From: Candidatus Magasanikiibacteriota bacterium
GTDB lineage: Bacteria > Patescibacteriota > Patescibacteriia > Magasanikbacterales > UBA922
Direction of reading: 5' to 3'
Length of the DNA stretch: 38,451 bases
Assembly (NCBI GenBank): GCA_018650085.1
Contig: JABIGQ010000019.1
Span: 1 to 38,451, forward strand
Below, one piece after another: positions 1-29,442 of this stretch (the first letter of the stretch is position 1; every line of letters starts with the position of its first letter). Below the pieces are notes generated by a model, which saw only the letters and a program-made list of their open reading frames with translations, searched no databases and had not been told where the DNA came from. A program made the position numbers and the translations under genes.

Positions 1-9
1 AAAAGGAAG

Positions 10-124
10 TTGTGGTGGCAAGTTTGTGCAAACTTGCCAATCACCGAGTTTAGTGTGTTCTTGGTTTCTCCCTACCTGCATACCACACCTAAGTGTGGGT
101 TGCCATACAGAAGTTACCTAGTCA
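10..124 (-). repeat. ~115-nt structured direct repeat, copy R1
   Basis: Nearly identical to R2 at 1597-1703 in the same orientation; the copies differ mainly by a short variable patch (agtgtgttcttgg versus cttag on the plus strand). Each holds a strong hairpin (ggcaagtttg/caaacttgcc, 2-nt loop) and a second one (ccacac/gtgtgg, loop ctaa on the plus strand). The outer stem of the second hairpin shows a compensatory change: GCA/TGC here, GCG/CGC in R2 (minus strand). R1 lies downstream of the ATPase gene and R2 downstream of the 95-aa gene, so each GC-rich minus-strand gene is followed by one copy. Function unknown; it could be a structured RNA 3' element or a recombination site. Confidence 0.8.
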
Positions 125-247
125 ATTCCTTTCCTGATTATACGCGTGCGAGACGGACAATGAGGACTTTTAGATGTAGGAAACATCTATTACTGGTCCA
201 GCGTTACAGTAAATCGCTACCCATTTTGGCGCCCAGGGTGGGGCTAG

Positions 248-283
248 CTGGAGAACAGGTTTTTACACCCGTGTGTTCTCCAG
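248..283 (-). terminator. hairpin spanning the stop codon of the ATPase gene
   Basis: A perfect 10-bp inverted repeat (CTGGAGAACA / TGTTCTCCAG) brackets the TAA stop codon of the AAA ATPase, which falls in the 16-nt loop. No U-run follows, so it is not a textbook intrinsic terminator. It may act as an mRNA 3' stabiliser or as part of the cassette-like repeat architecture. A further small hairpin (agatgt/acatct, 172-188) lies between it and R1. Confidence 0.5.
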
Positions 284-1387
284 CGCCATGCGCTGAGCCT
301 CTACCGCCTTGGCAGCTGCGGAATCCCGCAACTGCTTCCGGCGGCGGCTGAGCCCGTCGGTGACCTTGAGGCGCGAGGCCTCATCACCGAAAGACTGAAG
401 GTGGCGAGCCACCTTCAGGAGACGGAGAGGGCTCTTTGCCCGCTCCGCATCCTTCAGCTCTTCGAGCAGGGCGGCGAGCTTACGCTCAGCCGCTACTACT
501 CGAGACTCTGCGGCCGCACGCTCGGCGGCCTTGTCGAGCTCCTCTTTGAGGGAATCGGCGAGGCCTTCCAGCCCATCGACAAACCTCAGGTCGAGGAGAT
601 CGACCTTTTCCACCTGCTGCGAATCACGCAGCTCGGCGGCGGCTTTCACCGCGCCGAGAGCGTGAATGGCAGTTCTGGGAGAAATCGCGTCCCCCTGCTC
701 GGCCATCTTGCTGATAAGCTCTGCGAGGATTCGACCCATCCCATTAAGGGACGGGCCACCCAAGCGGGGCTCAACTTTTTCGAACAACTCAACGTAATCA
801 GTCGACTCGTACGACGACCAATCCACTTTGAGTTGCAAAGGAAAGCGCTCGACAAGAGCGCTCGCTGCGGGTCCGAGGTCCTTAATCTCGGACGGATCTT
901 TGTTTGTAAGTGCTACGATTGTACGGGTCGACTTCTTAAAGCGCTGAGCGCCTTTTCGAAGCCAACCCGACGTGAGAGTGTCCTTCAAAGCGAGAAGGAC
1001 ACTAGCAGGAGCATCAAAGAGCTCCTCAAAGACAGCATATTCCTTCGCAAGGAAGGAAGATTCCGGATGATACCGGAGAACCTTCTCTTCCTCGAGGGCG
1101 CGGAAGTCAAGCCCACCCCAAAGGGTAGCCTCATCCATGCCCTCTCCGAACGAGAGTACATGGACCTCATTAAGGAAGTCCTCAACGACCTCGGCCATTA
1201 CAGCCTCGACCATCTCAGACTTCCCGTGCCCTCCAGGTCCCCAGAGAAGCACGTTTTTACCCGATTGAAGAGCAAGAGCTAGGACCCGGGCAAGGTCCTG
1301 ACTCTTGATGAAGTCCCGCTCCAGGCGGGACAGGATCCGACTGTACAGGCTTTCCTGCACTGGTCGCATCTCTACTACGTTCTTCAC
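263..1387 (-). CDS. MoxR-like AAA+ ATPase, GC-rich
   Basis: An AAA+ ATPase of the MoxR/dynein-related type (~374 aa). Visible are Walker A GPGGHGKS near residue 50, a Walker-B-like segment AVFEELFDAP in which the usual DE reads EE, sensor-1-like ALTNKDP, and an ALVERFP arginine-finger region. The C-terminal third is an Ala/Glu/Arg-rich predicted coiled coil. MoxR ATPases typically remodel or load partners with VWA-domain proteins; no VWA gene is adjacent. The ORF track starts at GTG 1399, but GGAGG sits 5 nt before an in-frame GTG at 1387, which I prefer; ATG 1369 is also possible. The gene is far more GC-rich than most of the window and has a clear Shine-Dalgarno, suggesting acquisition from outside. 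Family call fairly sure; function unknown. Confidence 0.8.
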   Translation of the reverse strand: MKNVVEMRPVQESLYSRILSRLERDFIKSQDLARVLALALQSGKNVLLWGPGGHGKSEMVEAVMAEVVEDFLNEVHVLSFGEGMDEATLWGGLDFRALEEEKVLRYHPESSFLAKEYAVFEELFDAPASVLLALKDTLTSGWLRKGAQRFKKSTRTIVALTNKDPSEIKDLGPAASALVERFPLQLKVDWSSYESTDYVELFEKVEPRLGGPSLNGMGRILAELISKMAEQGDAISPRTAIHALGAVKAAAELRDSQQVEKVDLLDLRFVDGLEGLADSLKEELDKAAERAAAESRVVAAERKLAALLEELKDAERAKSPLRLLKVARHLQSFGDEASRLKVTDGLSRRRKQLRDSAAAKAVEAQRMALENTRV

Positions 1388-1399
1388 ACAAACCTCCAC

Positions 1400-1596
1400 A
1401 CCCCGATTGTTGGGATGTTAGATTAGGCTTGCCCCGGGGAGGGGCGAAGCTTATTTTTAAACTTTCTCCCCTCACCTTAGTGCAAGCCAAAGTTTGGGTC
1501 CCCTGCAGGAGTAACCCAAAACTTTTTATATGTGTAAATAAACCACTCATCTATTTCTTTTAAAAAACTCTCTTATGCTTTTAAAAAAAATAGAAA
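1400..1596 (-). promoter_or_regulatory. hairpin-rich leader upstream of the AAA ATPase
   Basis: On the minus strand the leader carries two strong stem-loops before the start codon. One has arms aaagtttgggt/acccaaaacttt (about 1489-1525). The other is GC-rich with arms GCTT(c)GCCCC/GGGGCAAGC (about 1431-1454). No known riboswitch consensus was recognised. An AT-rich stretch with two copies of cttttaaaaaa (about 1557-1590) lies further upstream and may hold the promoter, but no clear -35/-10 pair was seen. Confidence 0.4.
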
Positions 1597-1703
1597 TTGT
1601 GGTGGCAAGTTTGTGCAAACTTGCCAATCACCGAGTTTCTTAGTTTCTCCCTACCTGCGTACCACACCTAAGTGTGGGTCGCCATACAGAAGTTACCAAG
1701 TCA
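1597..1703 (-). repeat. ~107-nt structured direct repeat, copy R2
   Basis: Second copy of the repeat at 10-124, same orientation. It contains the same two hairpins, with the GCG/CGC version of the covarying stem. On the minus strand the large hairpin is followed about 8 nt later by a T-rich run, giving a weak terminator-like end. It lies between the stop of the 95-aa gene and the leader of the ATPase gene. Confidence 0.8.
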
Positions 1704-1726
1704 GTAAAGATTGACCACCATCTTTT

Positions 1727-1780
1727 AAAGGAGTGTTCTTGATTATTTTTTCAGGGAGAACACAGAAACTCCCTGGATAA
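1727..1780. other. overlapping hairpins downstream of the 95-aa gene
   Basis: Inverted repeats cagggag/ctccctg (loop aacacagaaa) and gtgttct/agaacac overlap here, flanked on both sides by A/T runs. They occupy the position that the stop-codon hairpin occupies behind the ATPase gene, so both GC-rich genes share the order gene - hairpin - long repeat. They could end the transcript, but no proper U-tract follows on the minus strand. Confidence 0.4.
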
Positions 1781-1789
1781 AAAATGCTC

Positions 1790-2077
1790 TTACAATGATG
1801 CCTGTACGAGCTGATCGAATTCGACCAGACTCATTTCAGGCACGTCATCGTAAGTCTGGGACATCTTAAGGGGTCGAAACCCCTCTGCGATCCCCAGAGC
1901 GTTCTTCATCTCATCCCACTGAACATTCCGCCGGGTCGGATGCTCTTGGTCTGTTTCGAGATACCTCTCGAACATCCCAAGAGCACCGACCTGCCAGGTC
2001 TTTCCATCCGTAGATCTAAAATCTACAGAATGGAAAGTTGTCAGGATGATGAAATTTTGGATATCAGACAATGACAT
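1790..2077 (-). CDS. hypothetical protein, 95 aa, GC-rich
   Basis: I do not recognise the family. The ORF track begins at 2155, but the start at 2077 (MSLSDIQNF) is preceded by GGAG about 9 nt upstream, while the 26 extra residues look like translated leader. The product is acidic and soluble, with no signal peptide, membrane span or repeats. The sequence is richer in G+C than the genes from 3.3 kb on and, like the ATPase next to it, has a Shine-Dalgarno. A weak promoter-like pair (TTTACA, 17 nt, TGTATC) lies on the minus strand near 2150-2180. The two genes and two long repeats may form one acquired unit. Confidence 0.6.
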   Translation of the reverse strand: MSLSDIQNFIILTTFHSVDFRSTDGKTWQVGALGMFERYLETDQEHPTRRNVQWDEMKNALGIAEGFRPLKMSQTYDDVPEMSLVEFDQLVQASL

Positions 2078-2484
2078 TGTCTTTTTCTCCAAAAAATGAT
2101 ATCTACAGTATGTAAATACCTCACTACTACATACCAGAAAATCTGATACACACAAGTGAAATTAAATTGTAAAGAACTATTCTCCATATGACATCTACAC
2201 TCACACCTTGAAACAAGTTACAAGATATAAGATACACATTACAAGTCAGTGATAATACCGACTGTCCCTGCTTCCATCTCCACTCTAGGAGCTTAGATGA
2301 AAACGGGACGCACTCGGTACTATAGACATCTCACAACATCTATAGGAGCATCACGAGCGGGATGACTCAATCTTCCGATCAAGCCAATTCCACTAACTCT
2401 ATACTCACTCTAACAATGTCAGAGCTTAGATCTTCGCGAGTCTGACCGTGCTTACCCACATATCTTCAATGAAGATGGGGCTTG

Positions 2485-2510
2485 CCCGGCGCAGCTTTAG
2501 CGAAGACAGG
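2485..2510 (+). repeat. palindromic element copy A
   Basis: Sequence of the form CCGGCGCAGCTTTAGC followed by GAAGACAGG, a short-loop member of the family seen at 2591, 2846 and 7941. It matches the copy inside rpsA at 22 of 25 positions, including a 16-nt exact match. Confidence 0.5.
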
Positions 2511-2590
2511 TGAGAGTGATGTACTCATATTGCCAGAAGAAGTCTCTCTCTTCTTCCCTTTCTCGGGCAATAGGAGTAAGCATCGGATTT

Positions 2591-2629
2591 ACCCGGCGCA
2601 ACATGCCGATAGGACATGTGGAGACGGGT
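2591..2629 (+). repeat. palindromic element copy B
   Basis: Hairpin ACCCG - gcgca - ACATG - ccgatagga - CATGT - ggaga - CGGGT. It shares internal-loop and terminal-loop sequence with copy C, while both stems differ in compensating ways. That pattern points to conserved secondary structure rather than conserved primary sequence. Confidence 0.65.
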
Positions 2630-2845
2630 TGATACAAGTGTACATAACACAAACGTGTTGTGTGTCGATCATTTACTATGAAGTTCGGCATCTCACGTTT
2701 ATCTCCCAACAAGCATGGAGACAAACAGATACCAGAACCAAGCTGATGTCGACAGCACTATCTACATATATATAGACAACGCTATCAATATCATTATTAG
2801 AGCTTTTTTAGTACAACATGCCGATGAATACAGTTACGAAACTTG

Positions 2846-2882
2846 TTCGGCGTAGCTTGCCGATAGGACAAGCGAAGACGAA
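2846..2882 (+). repeat. palindromic element copy C
   Basis: Hairpin TTCG - gcgta - GCTTG - ccgatagga - CAAGC - gaaga - CGAA, with the same architecture and identical 9-nt loop as copy B but different, still complementary, stems. Confidence 0.65.
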
Positions 2883-3105
2883 AAAAACACTCTTTGGCAA
2901 AGAGCGTTACATATCTATATAATGTATACACGAACATATAGCTCTTGTATAACATTACTTGATATCGCTCTCTACTTCGATTTCAGGTTTATATTGTAAA
3001 GATGTTTGTTATCTGCCTTTTTTCTTCGCTTCTCTAACATAACGGCGTATTATAGCACTTCTGTACGGATATGTCAAGGGTTGTGTATAAACTACGTTTT
3101 TAAAA

Positions 3106-3163: not shown

Positions 3164-3192
3164 TTGACAGATTAGAAGCAGTGTGCTATAAT
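3164..3192 (+). promoter_or_regulatory. consensus sigma70 promoter of the trmB-like gene
   Basis: TTGACA, 17-nt spacer, TATAAT: a perfect consensus pair. Transcription would start near 3199, leaving a leader of about 105 nt before the ATG at 3306. Confidence 0.85.
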
Positions 3193-3305: not shown

Positions 3306-4169
3306 ATGTCTACCCTCCTAAATTCAATCAAAGAAGCAGGAATGGAAGCTATTTCTGCAGAAATATACCTTATTTTAATAAATAATGGAGAACTCACCCC
3401 AAAAAAAATCATGGAACACACAGACCTATCCCGCGCCAGTATCCATGAAGCCCTAAATGATTTATTTGTAAAAGACTTTATTACGTATAGAAAAGAAGGA
3501 AGAAATGCCTACTACACCCCAGTACACCCAAATAAACTCCAAACACTAGTAGAAGAAAAAAAACGAGAAACTAAAATTTTTGAACATAACATCATCGATA
3601 CCATTCACAGCTTATCTGGGGCATTTAACCTCACACAAAATAAGCCTGGAGTAAGATTTTTTGAGGGGGTAGATGGAATAAAAGAAGTTCTAAAAGACAC
3701 ATTTGTGCATAATACCAGCAAACAAATTTATGCCTTTACCGATTTAGCTGGCTATGCTGAAACATTGGGTGAGTGGAATACAAAATATTATGCAAAAAAA
3801 AGAAAAGATCTAGGAATAAACCTAAAAGCTCTTGTCCCAGACAATGAAAAAGCATTGGAATTTTTAAAAGGATACGTAGCTACAGAACTCACAGATATTT
3901 TATTTATTGATCACACAAAATTTCCATTTTCTACAGAAATAAATATTTATAATGGACGTGTCTCATTTGTTTCTTTTGCAAAAGAAAAATCAACAGGTAT
4001 CTTAATTGAAAATGAAGCATATTATCAGACCATGAAATCTATCTTTGAATTCGCATGGAAAACAGGACACGTTTATAATGATCTAAAACAACCCGACTGG
4101 AAAAATGAAGGAATAAAAAAAGACACCCGCTCTGCCGCAGAAAAAATGGAAGAAGACTTAGATAAATAA
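3306..4169 (+). CDS. TrmB-like HTH transcriptional regulator
   Basis: A 287-aa protein with an N-terminal winged HTH (about residues 1-85; the ELTPKKIMEHTDLSRASIHEAL segment is the helix-turn-helix). A linker helix follows, then a second domain (about 110-250) resembling the phospholipase-D-like effector domain of TrmB regulators. TrmB proteins are often sugar-responsive in archaea; the ligand here is unknown. It is monocistronic behind a perfect-consensus promoter and faces the large unknown gene tail to tail. No Shine-Dalgarno precedes the ATG at 3306 (upstream reads aacccaacccct). The AT-rich palindrome before the promoter is a possible autoregulatory site (inference). Confidence 0.75.
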   Translation: MSTLLNSIKEAGMEAISAEIYLILINNGELTPKKIMEHTDLSRASIHEALNDLFVKDFITYRKEGRNAYYTPVHPNKLQTLVEEKKRETKIFEHNIIDTIHSLSGAFNLTQNKPGVRFFEGVDGIKEVLKDTFVHNTSKQIYAFTDLAGYAETLGEWNTKYYAKKRKDLGINLKALVPDNEKALEFLKGYVATELTDILFIDHTKFPFSTEINIYNGRVSFVSFAKEKSTGILIENEAYYQTMKSIFEFAWKTGHVYNDLKQPDWKNEGIKKDTRSAAEKMEEDLDK

Positions 4170-4221: not shown

Positions 4222-4325
4222 AGTGTAGGGTATTCTTATGTAATTTTGAGCTGCTACCGCCCTAGGCCGAACGAGCTGAATAGCTACGTGAGTTTATGAG
4301 AAATTACATAAGAATACTCTACACT
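4222..4325. mobile_element. 104-bp MITE-like element with 25-bp terminal inverted repeats
   Basis: The left arm (agtgtagggtattcttatg...) and right arm are complementary over 25 bp with one mismatch. The interior carries ccctaggccgaacgag. A 50-nt stretch of it (4230-4279) recurs at 38323-38372 with seven differences, all transitions. It lies in the gap between two convergent genes and can fold into one long hairpin. No target-site duplication is evident. Confidence 0.65.
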
Positions 4326-4346: not shown

Positions 4347-7300
4347 CTATAGATTCACCACCATATACTTCTGTAAAAAATCCAATATATCTTTCATACT
4401 CTTCACCTCATGCAATAATTCCACCAATTCCTCCCTACTCTTTCCCACAGAAGAAAAATAACTTTCTGGAGCGCTTTGTAATACATGAAAAAACTCCTTA
4501 CACATAGGCACCAAAACATTTTTTGCGTATATCTCTTGCGCCACAGGATTAAATGCTAATAATTTTCCACCAATCACTCCTTCCTTTGAAGCCACCACCT
4601 GATCTGCACCCAGAAATACGGGGTCATCACTACCAAAAAAATATGTACTATACTGCTCCCTAAATTTCATAATCTCTCGCACGCCTGCCTTTGGGTGTAC
4701 TGCCCACCCAAAACTTTTTGCGCCTACATCTGGAATAACAATGTCAAATGATATTTGTTCGCCAGACTCCTTTTTTTCTCGTGCCTTTTGTTTCTTTTCT
4801 GCACGTGACATTTTTACCCGTGGCATTCTAGGCTCTTTAATTGTTTTCAATGACTGAGCAAATAAATCAAAATAGGCCAATCGAGCAAATTGCTGACTTT
4901 TTTTTGCTTCCGTTTTCTTATTATTTATAAAATCACGAACATCCCCTATCGTCTCACTGACTATATTTGCAATATATTTATGCTGTTCTGATATATCTGC
5001 CCCACGCACATCTATAGGGAGAGAAAGCAAATCAACTAAAGTAAATCCACCTTTTTTCAATTGCACTTCCAAATTCTGTATCACAGTAGCTATTACATCA
5101 TAGCGAGACTCTTTTTCGTGGCTGACCTTTTTTTCATTTTTTGCTAGAATAAAAGCCACTTCATCTATACTATATGCAGCCCCCACTCCCTCTGCAGAAG
5201 TAGATTGTGCTGCCCCTAAAAATCCCTGCTTCCACATAGGATGATCTGCCAATTGGCTACAAATAGTATAATAATAATCAAAACGCTCTTGTTCTGTTTC
5301 TGATTCCTCTAAAACACCACCACCCTTTACCTCATCATAATGCTTTACTGTAATATTTAACAATCCAAATGTATCTATAATCTGCTGATACTGCGCTATT
5401 TCTGCATCTCCAATTTCTAAAGCAGCAGTCCGCGCACTATCTTCATCCAATCCATATAATTGTGTATAATTAGACACTTGTACCGTATCTGCAACTACTA
5501 ATTCCACAGCTTTCCCCTGATTTTCTAACCAAAATAAATATCCATACACATCTATAGGCTTCATAGCCTTCTTTTTTCCTTCAAATACTTCACGCCACTG
5601 TGGAAGATCCCGAGAAATTCCCACAGGTAAATACAATGGCTTTTCTGATGAGACTTTTTCTGTATCTGAATATTCTTCTCTACCAATATCTTGAAAAAGA
5701 TTCCCTATTTCTCTAAAATTTGGCCTATATATAATCGTCTCAACTGCTTTTCTCACCTTATCCTGGAATAATTGAAATCTTGAATTTCCTTCTTCAGGAA
5801 TATCTTGAAAAACACCTAACAACTCCTCCATTGTTTCTCTTCTCGTCACAACCAATCGCTCTGTTTCTGTTACCACTGCCGTAGTAATATTTCTTTTTTC
5901 TTCCACACTCTCTGTTTCTTTTAATTGTTTTTCTATATCAGATAATAATCCAGTTGCACGCCCAAGTAAGGCTCTTTTTATATATTGAAGTGACATATCA
6001 TCTCCTAACACTTCAGATACCGTATCATAAATATGTTCCGCGTCTGCATCTATAGAATCTGCGTATCTTGCAAATGCATCCATAATTCTACTCCCAGCAT
6101 CTGGGAGCTCTTCTGTTTCCTTGAATAAAGAAAGAATTGTTTCCCCCTTTATAGAAGTCATCTCCAATGCCTGAAATACTTTTACACCAGACAATCCATA
6201 CTGCTCTTTTATCTTTATTACTTCTTCCCAATCTTTTTCATCTGCCCCCTGCCAAAATTGATACATCCACACCTGTTCTTTTAGAGTTAAATCACTTAGG
6301 TGCATACCGCCTATCTCCCCAAATGTTTCCTCATAAAATTTTGTATACCCAGAAAGAAACTGCTGTCGAATTTCATCTGGAGTATCTATACTAGAAAATA
6401 ACATCTCACGCGTAATTTCTAGCAATTCTGCTTGTTTTTCTTTTTCTCCACCCAAACTCCCTAATTCAATATACCCAGATAGCACACCCGCACTATCAAA
6501 TATACCCATCTGTCCATTAAAAGAAATCCTTCTAGCAAAAGCAGCATTATCTTTTTCCACTCCAGATAAAATAAACCTTTTTTCAAAATAATCAATCACC
6601 CCATTATCTATATTCATTTTCCCAAACTCGACCCTATGCCAAAGTGCATCTATATTTTCTAATAAATATACGGCTTTACCCTCTTCTATTTCACCATTAG
6701 TTTTACGCTCTAAAATATTTCTTCTTTTTTCAAAAAGCCCTTCCATAGCCAGACCAGCACCAATTTTACTACATGCAGATGCTATATCTGGAGCAAAATA
6801 CATACTCGTGGTCTCAAAAAAATCCAGCAACTCTGTCACCGCTTCTTTATTTAAAGAACCAATCCGCCCAATAGCATTAATTGATTGCTTTATTCGATGA
6901 GATAAAACATTATCATATTGCATTCCACCATCAAATCGTAATCCCGCATACTGCCTATTTCCTTCCAGCATTTTGTCATCATATATTTCTCCAGCTACTC
7001 CATATTGTATCTCTTTATTCAATTGCTCTACTAAAGAAAAAAGAATAGCTTCTGCTTCTTTTTTAGCCTCCAGATCACCCTGCGCAAGACGTTCTACCGT
7101 TTGTATCATGAAAAATAAAAAATTATCCTCATCGAATCCACTACTTTTTTGTCCTTCCTTATATAGTAAGCTCTTTTCGGTATCTGAAGCTTCTGCAATT
7201 ACAGATGATAAAATTTCATTTTTTAAAACATCTTGAACAGGAGGATTACCCAGAATTCCTCCCATATAAGATTGCCTCCCATCATCTTTATCTAAGAAGT

Positions 7301-7664
7301 GGGCCTCTGTAATAGTTTTCAAGCTCTTTAGCATTTCTACTGCGCCACCTTTTTTTTCTATTAACATATTTTCCACCTCTTCACTACATCCACCCCAAAT
7401 ACTAGTAAATATAAGTAATAAAAAAGCTTTCTCATCTATTTCACCTAATTCTCTTTCAATTTCTTCTTTTTTTTCTGGCCTATTTTCAAAAAAACTCTCC
7501 AATCCTGAAACTCTTATATATTTATCTGAAAAGTTTCCCTCTCCAGTATATCTTTCCAGAAAACGATCATACGCTTCTTGTGTTTTTTCATCTTCAAACA
7601 ATGGTGATCTTTCTACATCTATAGGGCCTTCCTTTAATTTAATTCCTCCAGGTTCTGAAAACAT
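4347..7664 (-). CDS. very large hypothetical protein, 1105 aa
   Basis: I do not recognise this protein. It is long, acidic and almost entirely predicted helical, with no signal peptide or obvious membrane span, so it is probably cytosolic. It opens MFSEPGGIKLKEGPIDVE. Near the C-terminal end there is a basic patch (SRAEKKQKAREKK) followed by a more globular tail of about 140 residues (FDIVIPDVGAKSFGWAVHP...). No nucleotide-binding or catalytic motif stands out. Base composition matches the AT-rich housekeeping genes, so it looks native. It is transcribed alone, away from rpsA, which ends in its own terminator. No Shine-Dalgarno precedes the ATG. Candidate lineage-specific structural or scaffold protein (inference). 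Confidence 0.7.
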   Translation of the reverse strand: MFSEPGGIKLKEGPIDVERSPLFEDEKTQEAYDRFLERYTGEGNFSDKYIRVSGLESFFENRPEKKEEIERELGEIDEKAFLLLIFTSIWGGCSEEVENMLIEKKGGAVEMLKSLKTITEAHFLDKDDGRQSYMGGILGNPPVQDVLKNEILSSVIAEASDTEKSLLYKEGQKSSGFDEDNFLFFMIQTVERLAQGDLEAKKEAEAILFSLVEQLNKEIQYGVAGEIYDDKMLEGNRQYAGLRFDGGMQYDNVLSHRIKQSINAIGRIGSLNKEAVTELLDFFETTSMYFAPDIASACSKIGAGLAMEGLFEKRRNILERKTNGEIEEGKAVYLLENIDALWHRVEFGKMNIDNGVIDYFEKRFILSGVEKDNAAFARRISFNGQMGIFDSAGVLSGYIELGSLGGEKEKQAELLEITREMLFSSIDTPDEIRQQFLSGYTKFYEETFGEIGGMHLSDLTLKEQVWMYQFWQGADEKDWEEVIKIKEQYGLSGVKVFQALEMTSIKGETILSLFKETEELPDAGSRIMDAFARYADSIDADAEHIYDTVSEVLGDDMSLQYIKRALLGRATGLLSDIEKQLKETESVEEKRNITTAVVTETERLVVTRRETMEELLGVFQDIPEEGNSRFQLFQDKVRKAVETIIYRPNFREIGNLFQDIGREEYSDTEKVSSEKPLYLPVGISRDLPQWREVFEGKKKAMKPIDVYGYLFWLENQGKAVELVVADTVQVSNYTQLYGLDEDSARTAALEIGDAEIAQYQQIIDTFGLLNITVKHYDEVKGGGVLEESETEQERFDYYYTICSQLADHPMWKQGFLGAAQSTSAEGVGAAYSIDEVAFILAKNEKKVSHEKESRYDVIATVIQNLEVQLKKGGFTLVDLLSLPIDVRGADISEQHKYIANIVSETIGDVRDFINNKKTEAKKSQQFARLAYFDLFAQSLKTIKEPRMPRVKMSRAEKKQKAREKKESGEQISFDIVIPDVGAKSFGWAVHPKAGVREIMKFREQYSTYFFGSDDPVFLGADQVVASKEGVIGGKLLAFNPVAQEIYAKNVLVPMCKEFFHVLQSAPESYFSSVGKSREELVELLHEVKSMKDILDFLQKYMVVNL

Positions 7665-7839: not shown

Positions 7840-9084
7840 CTATGCACTTTTCTCTTCTGTCTTTTCAACTTTCTCTTCTACAACCTCTTCTACTTTCTCT
7901 TCTTTTTTATCGGACACAACTTCATCAGAAACTGTTTTATCCGGCGCAGCTTTAGCAGAGACGGGCTTATCCTCTTTTTTCTCTTCTCTCTTTGGTTTTA
8001 CCCCAGCCAAGCGAAGACCTAGACGATGTTCTGCAGGTTCTATATTGATAATTTCAAAATCTTTTGACTCACCAATAGTAAAGATAGTACGAAGTTCAGT
8101 CACATTACTAATTTGTTTATTAGACAACTCAGAAATATGCGCAAGTCCGTGGATATGATTATCCAATTTTACCATTAATCCAAACGGTTCAATCTTATGT
8201 ACTTCACCAGAGACAATTTGCCCTACCTTATACATGTCTTTTACCTTTTTCCATGGATCATCTACTAAACGCTTCATTGATAAGTAGATCTTTGACTTAT
8301 TTAAATCAATAATTTGTGCTTCTACCTTATCTCCTACCTTTAATATATCCTTTGGATGGTCAATACGTTGCCACACAATCTCTGAGATATGGATAAGTCC
8401 TTCTAGACCTTCTCCAAATTTCATAAATGCCCCAAATGAAGTAAGCGCGCTCACCTCACCTGAAACAAGATCTCCGATCTTATATGATTCAAGTACAGCT
8501 TTTTGGTCATCTTCCCAAACTGCTTTTTCAGATAAAATTAATTTTTCTTCTTTTTGGTTTGCATCTAATACCTTTACCTTTAAAGATATTCCTACCAACT
8601 GTTGTAAATGTTCTAAAATACGATTCTTATCTCCACCCTGTACACGAGGATAATGTTCTGGCGCAAGCTGACTTACTGGCATAAACCCAGTCAATGCATC
8701 CAATTGCACCATAAGTCCACCTTTATTTGCGTGGATGATCTTTGCATCAATTGCAACACCATCTACTACATGCTGTGCCATATTGTCCCAGACACGTTGG
8801 TATCCAGCAATACGGAATGACAATTCCATTTCTCCTGTTTCATTTTCTTGCTCTATAACAGTCGCTTCTACTTCTGTTCCTACTTGAATATTTGAATATT
8901 CACTTGATTCTGCAAATAATTCACGTGATCGGATGATTCCGATTAATAAACCATTTACATCAATTCTCACAGCGCCATTACTTACAGAAATGACTTTTCC
9001 TTTTATTGTTTCTCCTACTTTTGGAAGTTTTGCAAAATAATCTTGCAATAAATCTTCAAAGTTTTCTTGATTTTTTGTGACCAT
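7840..9084 (-). CDS. rpsA: 30S ribosomal protein S1
   Basis: S1 binds mRNA through OB-fold S1 domains and helps the 30S subunit load transcripts. The 414-aa product has four S1 repeats (about residues 20-90, 105-195, 210-280, 295-365); the last two are most canonical (FGAFMKFGEGLEGLIHISE; FGLMVKLDNHIHGLAHISE). A low-complexity Lys/Glu/Val tail ends the protein. The start at 9084 (MVTKNQEN) is preferred over the ORF-track start because the upstream 27 residues do not resemble S1 and lie in the leader. Four domains is fewer than the six of E. coli. The tail contains an in-frame copy of the palindromic element also found at 2485-2882. It has its own promoter and terminator. Confidence 0.93.
   Translation of the reverse strand: MVTKNQENFEDLLQDYFAKLPKVGETIKGKVISVSNGAVRIDVNGLLIGIIRSRELFAESSEYSNIQVGTEVEATVIEQENETGEMELSFRIAGYQRVWDNMAQHVVDGVAIDAKIIHANKGGLMVQLDALTGFMPVSQLAPEHYPRVQGGDKNRILEHLQQLVGISLKVKVLDANQKEEKLILSEKAVWEDDQKAVLESYKIGDLVSGEVSALTSFGAFMKFGEGLEGLIHISEIVWQRIDHPKDILKVGDKVEAQIIDLNKSKIYLSMKRLVDDPWKKVKDMYKVGQIVSGEVHKIEPFGLMVKLDNHIHGLAHISELSNKQISNVTELRTIFTIGESKDFEIINIEPAEHRLGLRLAGVKPKREEKKEDKPVSAKAAPDKTVSDEVVSDKKEEKVEEVVEEKVEKTEEKSA
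7941..7965 (+). repeat. palindromic element copy D inside rpsA
   Basis: CCG - gcgca - GCT tt AGC - agaga - CGG: the short-loop version of the element, lying in frame in the low-complexity C-terminal tail of S1, where it encodes roughly PVSAKAAP on the minus strand. It matches copy A at 22 of 25 positions. It recalls the in-frame palindromic elements known from Rickettsia, though the relationship is only by analogy. Confidence 0.5.
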
Positions 9085-9155
9085 AGTCAAAAAAAGATTA
9101 ACCCGCCATATATGGCAAGCCCACATTATCTGTGGATAATAAATTAAGCTGGTAT

Positions 9156-9184
9156 AGTGTATCACAAGCTCTTGATTTTTGCAA
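9156..9184 (-). promoter_or_regulatory. rpsA promoter and structured leader
   Basis: TTGCAA, 17 nt, TACACT on the minus strand. The ~65-nt leader holds the 12-bp palindrome GCCATATATGGC (about 9103-9114) and an ATTATC/GATAAT hairpin. S1 is autoregulated in other bacteria, so these could be operator structures (inference). Confidence 0.65.
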
Positions 9185-27582: not shown

Positions 27583-27744
27583 TAGCCCTCTCTGGAAACT
27601 AATTATGTTACGAAATGTATAGATTTTAAGTCATAATTTTTTAAACAATATTTGAAGAATAGCCTTAGCTATTATGATAATATTTTTAGAAAATTTGACC
27701 AAAATATATATATTGCAGTAATAAGTAGTTTCCAGAGAGGGCTA
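27583..27744. mobile_element. 162-bp MITE-like element with 19-bp terminal inverted repeats
   Basis: Ends TAGCCCTCTCTGGAAACTA and its perfect complement; homology continues imperfectly as TTAT. TA at both ends could be a TA target duplication as made by IS630/Tc1-type elements, or simply part of the palindrome. No transposase ORF inside. It lies between the putative promoter and the start of rmuC, so it forms most of that leader. Confidence 0.75.
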
Positions 27745-29281: not shown

Positions 29282-29442
29282 AGAGCCCGTTTAGAATCTT
29301 TTTTCTAGAGCCATTTTGTTATATTTTGAGCGAAAATGACATAAAAAAGTGAAGAATAACGGTGTTATTTTGAACTTTTTTAGGACATTTGCAACCAAAA
29401 TAGGGAAAAATGGAGTCAGGAAAAAGATTCTAAACGGGCTCT
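29282..29442. mobile_element. 161-bp MITE-like element at the holA 3' end
   Basis: Terminal inverted repeats agagcccgtttagaatcttttt and complement match perfectly over 22 bp and imperfectly to about 36 bp. There is no internal ORF. The right end supplies the last three codons and TAG stop of holA. No clear target-site duplication. Confidence 0.8.

Follow-up and report, generated by a model that had tools for sequence, protein, structure and literature searches.

A strongly folded gene unit with repeated structured tails at a TrmB-linked site in Patescibacteria: a candidate self-partitioning messenger RNA

We describe a minus-strand gene unit at the left edge of a 38,451-nt stretch of contig JABIGQ010000019.1 (the whole stretch is termed the window) from a Candidatus Magasanikiibacteriota bacterium. 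About 30 loci across the Patescibacteria (CPR) resemble this unit, and together they show excess folding of the sense strand, a modular order of elements, structured tails behind unrelated genes, hammerheads in the relatives, covarying leaders, and cargo that varies at one chromosomal site. Our interpretation, which we regard as plausible but short of probable, is that the unit gives rise to an armoured polycistronic mRNA that would partition itself, the repeat behind each gene serving as the module for 3′ processing or protection; cleavage, stabilization, control by TrmB and purpose are what we infer from these features.

The initial annotation had described two GC-rich minus-strand genes with Shine-Dalgarno sequences, each followed by a hairpin and then by a repeat in the same orientation, and the open reading frames, Shine-Dalgarno sequences and hairpins (1775-1752 and 283-248) bear this out (Table 1). 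The ~115-nt repeat is present as two minus-strand copies, 89% identical, behind the genes for a 95-aa orphan protein and a MoxR-type ATPase, and the GC content of these genes (0.48 for the 95-aa ORF and 0.58 for MoxR) compares with 0.33-0.38 in most of the contig. The MoxR protein matches PF20030 (E 4e-13, 49.3 bits; cut-off 27), AAA_5 (31.2 bits; cut-off 22) and, weakly, RavA, and its start is likely the GTG at 1387 rather than 1399, with a Shine-Dalgarno sequence present. No match to the 95-aa protein was found in Pfam, PHROGs or PADLOC, nor to the 1105-aa protein in Pfam. Near-consensus promoters directed outward occupy the equivalent position in most related loci, and two parts of the long leader (2584-2511 and 2382-2217) are 86% and 77% identical to the leader of L085, a locus from the window's own genus with different cargo. 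The window starts at the first base of its contig, one of 64 in an assembly of ~1.0 Mb, and the contig end cuts the leftward unit 7 nt past repeat copy 1, so that the sequence beyond MoxR is missing. Five other contigs (L092, L097, L099, L105, and L107) stop within a few kb upstream of TrmB, as the window does; folded islands may be an obstacle to assembly or binning. Another contig of the same genome (L108, G000:C39) has a strongly folded stretch in its first ~290 bases (z -7, one scanned window).

Table 1. Elements of the leftward unit and of the adjoining TrmB region, in window coordinates.
Feature	Position	Strand	Evidence
Sigma-70-type promoter of the folded unit, TTGACA-17-TATAAT	3049..3077	-	12/12 consensus matches
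Long noncoding structured leader, ~970 nt	2078..3048	-	z -3.4 sense strand, -1.4 opposite strand
95-aa orphan gene, Shine-Dalgarno and ATG, coding region strongly folded	1790..2077	-	z -8.6, -5.8
Hairpin CAGGGAG/CTCCCTG after the 95-aa gene	1752..1775	-	Read from sequence, also folded
Structured tail repeat, copy 2	1595..1707	-	BLAST, fold z, covariance-model match
Conserved structured MoxR leader	1388..1505	-	Common to L018, L035, L028, L029, L033; double-sided change in 7/27 pairs
MoxR-type AAA+ ATPase gene (GTG start at 1387, 374 aa) with a strongly folded coding region	263..1387	-	PF20030, AAA_5; z -11.0, -10.6
10-bp hairpin CTGGAGAACA/TGTTCTCCAG around the MoxR stop codon	248..283	-	Read from sequence
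Post-gene element CCCACCCTGGGCGCCAAAATGGGTAGC	216..242	-	Also present in L025 at 14483, behind another gene
Structured tail repeat, copy 1; contig end 7 nt further	8..128	-	BLAST, fold z, covariance-model match
Divergent promoter of the TrmB gene	3164..3192	+	12/12 consensus matches
TrmB-family regulator, divergent from the unit	3306..4169	+	PF01978 E 4e-9; homologues beside island in L018, L020, order relatives
1105-aa protein accompanying TrmB	4347..7664	-	Homologues beside TrmB in six order relatives

The folding extends through the coding regions, in which local hairpins abound. When synonymous codons were shuffled with the protein and codon usage kept, the z values were -11.0 for the window MoxR gene and -8.6 for the 95-aa gene but only -0.2 for the neighbouring TrmB gene, and when the dinucleotides were nearly matched as well the values were -10.6, -5.8, and +0.5, respectively; S1, an ordinary gene, is fairly folded at -4.5. 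The MoxR and vWA genes of the close CPR loci (about 20, L024-L044) range from -1.3 to -11.6 and are mostly beyond -4, whereas the values for their homologues in Planctomycetes run from +2.0 to -3.1, and hence the folding tracks the kind of locus and not the protein family. Control genes lie mostly between +1 and -3, the exception being a gene in L026 (-6.7). The genes of L036 are folded (z -4.3 and -11.6) yet are not GC-rich (GC 0.40-0.43), and weakly folded cargo genes also occur, including the DUF3228 gene of L018 (z -1.1) and a 344-aa gene of L085 (-2.5). The folded zone of the window stops at about 3000, at the promoter, and that of L018 begins at the TrmB gene and covers ~9 kb. Across 32 islands the sense strand folds more stably than the antisense strand (Wilcoxon p 7e-16, from 482 scanned windows that are not fully independent), a bias that is not seen in controls (p 0.24) and that points to RNA rather than DNA. 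The MoxR coding region has an average folding energy of -0.44 kcal/mol per nt vs. -0.34 for a 23S rRNA fragment, two sequences that differ in base composition. Strongly folded MoxR-vWA pairs (z -3.8 to -8.6) were also seen in three IMG/VR contigs classed as viral (L054, L055, and L057).

Both copies of the window repeat, with boundaries taken from covariance-model matches, contain an imperfect long hairpin and, after it, one that has a GCAC loop, and their fold z values vs. dinucleotide shuffles are -2.7 and -5.2. The compensatory change between them, GCG/CGC vs. GCA/TGC, to which the initial annotation drew attention, is indeed present, but as a single pair in two sequences that is attained in 233 of 500 shuffles it is not evidence by itself, and the two-copy covariation test was set aside as uninformative. 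Against its own assembly copy 2 matches by BLAST only itself and positions 6-124 (89% identity, E 1.8e-40). BLAST of the other genomes of the order gave nothing beyond two weak partial matches, and the repeat was not found in 380 genomes of the class (by covariance model), in phages and plasmids, in viral contigs (by pattern search), or in the related islands apart from one match at E 0.03; a supposed further copy in L010 proved to be a chance 17-mer that the covariance model does not match. At gathering score the repeat matches no Rfam family, the only matches in the window being tRNAs, and the covariance model for the type III hammerhead (RF00008) has no match within the window. The attC core, GTTRRRY or RYYYAAC, is absent from both strands of both copies, and the repeat thus falls outside the known integron pattern, as had been suspected.

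The arrangement itself recurs, although the window repeat, as far as searched, exists in two copies only, a result that the annotation would have taken as refuting a new kind of element. When the islands were compared with themselves, with distances measured to the nearest long open frame and not to a proven gene, one tail was found to recur behind different genes in about 11 islands including the window, often 7-140 nt past the stop. The tails in the window lie 87 and 139 nt past the stops; L025 has a 181-nt tail (98%) behind both MoxR and vWA (10 and 7 nt past the stops), L029 a 168-nt tail (73%) behind the same two genes, L033 an 89-nt tail (87%; 7 and 7 nt), and L107 a 123-nt tail (93%) behind two different genes (8 and 13 nt). 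Repeated tails are also present in L085 (106 nt), L086 (61 and 37 nt), L091 (83 nt), and L103 (43 nt), L026 and L039 have repeats that follow open frames, and about two thirds of the islands are without a repeated tail. The tail sequences are mostly specific to the genome and almost wholly different between genomes, despite conserved MoxR and vWA. One element, CGCCATTTC[A/T]GG..GAAGGCATGAA, does link genomes: in L018 it follows MoxR and vWA, in L035 MoxR, and in L085 the 344-aa gene. With strict spacing (CGCCATTTC..GAATAG) it has a sole match among 379 genomes, in G001 (the spacing in L018 differs), and none in viral sequences. A GCAC apical loop was considered as a universal signature of the tails and is unconvincing (35 sense vs. 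22 antisense hairpins). The suggestion that genes share a structured RNA tail holds and extends to about 11 islands, and a search for the repeat behind many unrelated genes in CPR genomes, as had been recommended, recovered the pattern but not the window sequence.

In some relatives the tails or intergenic parts contain type III hammerheads. In L019, which is the L029 locus, Hammerhead_3 is matched by the tail of MoxR and by that of vWA, with E values of 1.9e-7 and 5.3e-7. L033 has a match behind MoxR (1.5e-6), and L026 (6.7e-7) and L024 (2.2e-4) have matches elsewhere, all of these being below the gathering score with the core intact; the sole match above that score is in L043 (2.7e-8). A strict search for the hammerhead core gave six, all on the sense strand, and a loose pattern gave four sense and one antisense. 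Mini-ORFs led by a Shine-Dalgarno sequence with RGPP near the start are similarly biased (9 sense, 0 antisense), and RGPP or RGP mini-ORFs are present in seven related islands; the window has no RGPP in such an ORF. RGPP is reported to cause robust ribosome arrest that is refractory to EF-P (PMC12992588). Ultra-short Shine-Dalgarno-led ORFs of the M..RGPP or MIRGP* form were noted in L025 (13098, 15527), L029 (7988, 8546), L032 (12468, 12925), L033 (6265, 6860), L035 (11989), L044 (12456), and L088 (2065, as read outward from the regulator) and are followed by long structured noncoding RNA, with two related ~340-nt modules in L032/L021. As MIRGP* is also found in L088, an island without MoxR, it ties together the islands with and without this gene. 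The leaders covary: that of MoxR (1505-1388) is conserved in five other islands, with double-sided changes in 7 of its 27 predicted pairs, and a second leader family is common to thirteen other islands, with such changes in 16 of 31 pairs.

The islands occupy a recurrent chromosomal site. A TrmB regulator adjoins the island in the window, L018, L020, and L021, and homologues of the 1105-aa protein lie beside TrmB in six relatives from the order, while a seventh (L090) has no adjacent TrmB match. In these order relatives the 1105-aa homologue and TrmB flank a GC-rich folded zone with different genes, and in L087 and L088 the shared neighbours also include S1, an MBL-fold gene, and gyrA. The cargo of L088 includes a PPDK-like enzyme and that of L085 a DHH-motif protein, and beside a more distant TrmB homologue in L103 there is a P-loop/Cas_csx3 fusion (395-aa ORF, PF09620, E 1.5e-15), although to extend the latter to a link with cyclic-oligoadenylate signalling is only a guess. 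Since the cargo varies at one chromosomal site, the content of the island is exchanged. Several TrmB homologues, mostly more distant, have no folded zone, and TrmB alone is thus no marker. The GNAT-bearing protein at the same place in L018 was considered as a counterpart of the 1105-aa protein and has no clear homology to it. A family of ~116-aa proteins starting MKKVLWVSRH was also noted in the cargo (L033 5873-6223, and relatives).

MoxR relatives were not found in the other 85 genomes of the order, and among 379 phylum-wide genomes another six have a match at E ≤ 1e-6, with 56-66% identity in four. A GTDB scan with alignment gave about 20 close loci labelled Kaiserbacteria, Uhrbacteria, Moraniibacteriota, Doudnabacteria, Saccharibacteria, CPR2, and others, a few of which are probably mis-binned. 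In the close loci a vWA gene comes after MoxR, except in L042, which is cut inside MoxR, and in many islands the gap between the two is only some 10-30 nt. A vWA gene was not found in the window's assembly, where the contig ends just past MoxR, as expected if the contig break removed it. Frames of vWA or MoxR broken by a frameshift or stop were seen in L044 (11095-12442, equivalent to L020 from 10646 onward), L022 (7886-9032), and L039 (1206-3662) and may be pseudogenes, assembly errors, or recoding. A conserved ~155-aa protein with a TETxxxPW-like end accompanies MoxR-vWA in 18 loci (among L024-L044), and one such protein had no match in Pfam.

The tails stand just behind genes and are ribozymes in one set of genomes but unrelated structured repeats in another, which suggests 3′ processing and end protection, and the arrest ORFs and folded coding regions fit with protection of the message. 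In the proposed mechanism a long polycistronic mRNA would run leftward from the promoter, with nearly the whole transcript, coding sequence included, under selection to fold. Its modules would follow the order structured leader, Shine-Dalgarno sequence and gene, hairpin, and structured tail, the ~115-nt repeat serving as the tail, whose likeliest job, 3′ processing and end protection, would split the primary transcript into folded messages that are each stable on their own. In those relatives with a hammerhead at the equivalent position the RNA would cut itself, and in the window an undescribed self-cleaving RNA or a cellular RNase would make the cut. At the arrest mini-ORFs of the relatives a parked ribosome could act as a shield or a switch, and the neighbouring TrmB probably controls the unit. 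It is quite possible, though short of probable, that such loci encode an undescribed class of Patescibacteria transcript, namely a globally folded cargo mRNA that is linked to TrmB and partitions itself, its 3′ modules making armoured single-gene messages, possibly for storage or delivery; the modules of this class would be hammerheads in some lineages and new self-cleaving or end-protecting RNAs, including the window repeat, elsewhere.

Other explanations of the same features were weighed. The leaders and tails might instead bind an encoded or cellular protein that coordinates translation, localization, packaging, or export of the folded messages, which would suit leaders that are conserved and covarying, the use of the same tail behind several genes of one unit, and the epibiotic life style of the CPR. 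The folding of the coding regions, which is like that of viral RNAs (GORS; PMC3950689), points the same way, but the tails differ almost completely between genomes in which MoxR and vWA are conserved, the cargo examined includes no capsid or export protein, and we consider this unlikely. Control in cis only, by leaders, tails, and arrest ORFs as attenuator or riboswitch-like devices that govern read-through and translation, would be in keeping with the covarying leaders immediately before the MoxR Shine-Dalgarno sequence and with RGPP and RAPP ORFs as known regulatory arrest devices (PMC12992588); it leaves unexplained both the excess folding inside coding sequences and the presence of one tail behind unrelated genes, and it seems to us rather unlikely. 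An ordinary origin, in which GC-rich genes were acquired horizontally together with a duplicated terminator-like region and the remainder is compositional bias, is improbable, since the folding excess persists under shuffles that keep the protein, codon usage, and nearly all dinucleotides, is also present in genes that are not GC-rich (L036), and is lacking in the Planctomycete homologues, and the leaders covary, even though the genes are GC-rich in low-GC hosts and this repeat sequence has two copies only.

Two readings place the function in DNA. The initial annotation had likened the arrangement to cassettes in which a recombination site lies 3′ of the gene, integron-like or of a new kind, and the order of gene then repeat in the same orientation and the differing cargo at one chromosomal site are what cassettes would show. 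However, the attC core sequences are absent, folding is stronger on the transcribed strand, which points to RNA, as do the covariation and the hammerheads of the relatives, and where island content is exchanged, excision, shuffling, gain, or loss of single gene-tail units was not seen; we therefore hold the cassette reading to be quite improbable. Palindromes acting at the DNA level in single-stranded DNA transfer or replication would account for the many local inverted repeats, but they are disfavoured by the significantly greater stability of the sense strand in islands and not in controls, and have very little probability in our view.

The self-partitioning mRNA that we favour would, if confirmed, represent a new way of organizing messages, and would bring candidate new self-cleaving RNAs together with minimal arrest ORFs. 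The bacteria concerned account for much of uncultured life and are often found living on other cells. We know of no precedent for whole bacterial operons whose coding regions too are folded, and this at one kind of locus throughout a radiation. An earlier description of such a system was not found in the open-access literature, most subscription journals being outside that scope, and the novelty is provisional; the open-access literature likewise yielded no paper on MoxR/vWA or hammerheads in CPR or on DUF3228. Known systems resemble parts of the arrangement. The mRNAs of hok type are folded, long-lived, and 3′-processed, but here there is no toxin, and the unit is multi-gene and folded throughout. 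MoxR-vWA pairs (RavA-ViaA, CoxD-CoxE, and the bpMoxR ternary systems) have their likeness in the PF20030 MoxR and the adjoining vWA of the relatives, but MoxR is here one of several kinds of cargo, and homologues elsewhere are without the folding. Integron cassettes also have a structured repeat after the gene and variable cargo at one site, but have the attC cores that are lacking here. Type III hammerheads (RF00008) are found in L019/L029, L033, L024, L026, and L043, but the window repeat does not match them and their serial use behind successive genes of an operon is unusual. RGPP in short Shine-Dalgarno-led ORFs on the sense strand only recalls the RAPP/RGPP arrest peptides, but the candidates in the relatives are as short as MIRGP*, are followed by structured RNA, and are absent from the window. 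The genome-scale ordered RNA structure of positive-strand RNA viruses (PMC3950689, PMC3695492) is similar in that the folding excess extends across the coding sequence and is not limited to single elements (z -10.6 and -5.8 in the window), but the present loci are operons on bacterial chromosomes that have promoters, leaders, and repeated tails, and those read contain no replicase.

Several further inverted and hairpin-like repeats were noted in the window. Long inverted repeats are located at 29282-29442 (arms of 79 nt), 4222-4325 (25 nt), and 27583-27744 (24 nt). Short GC-rich hairpin-like repeats occur in the long leader at 2594-2626 and 2848-2880, with a relative at 7941-7965, inside the coding part of 7840-9165, and these are perhaps dispersed palindromic repeats.
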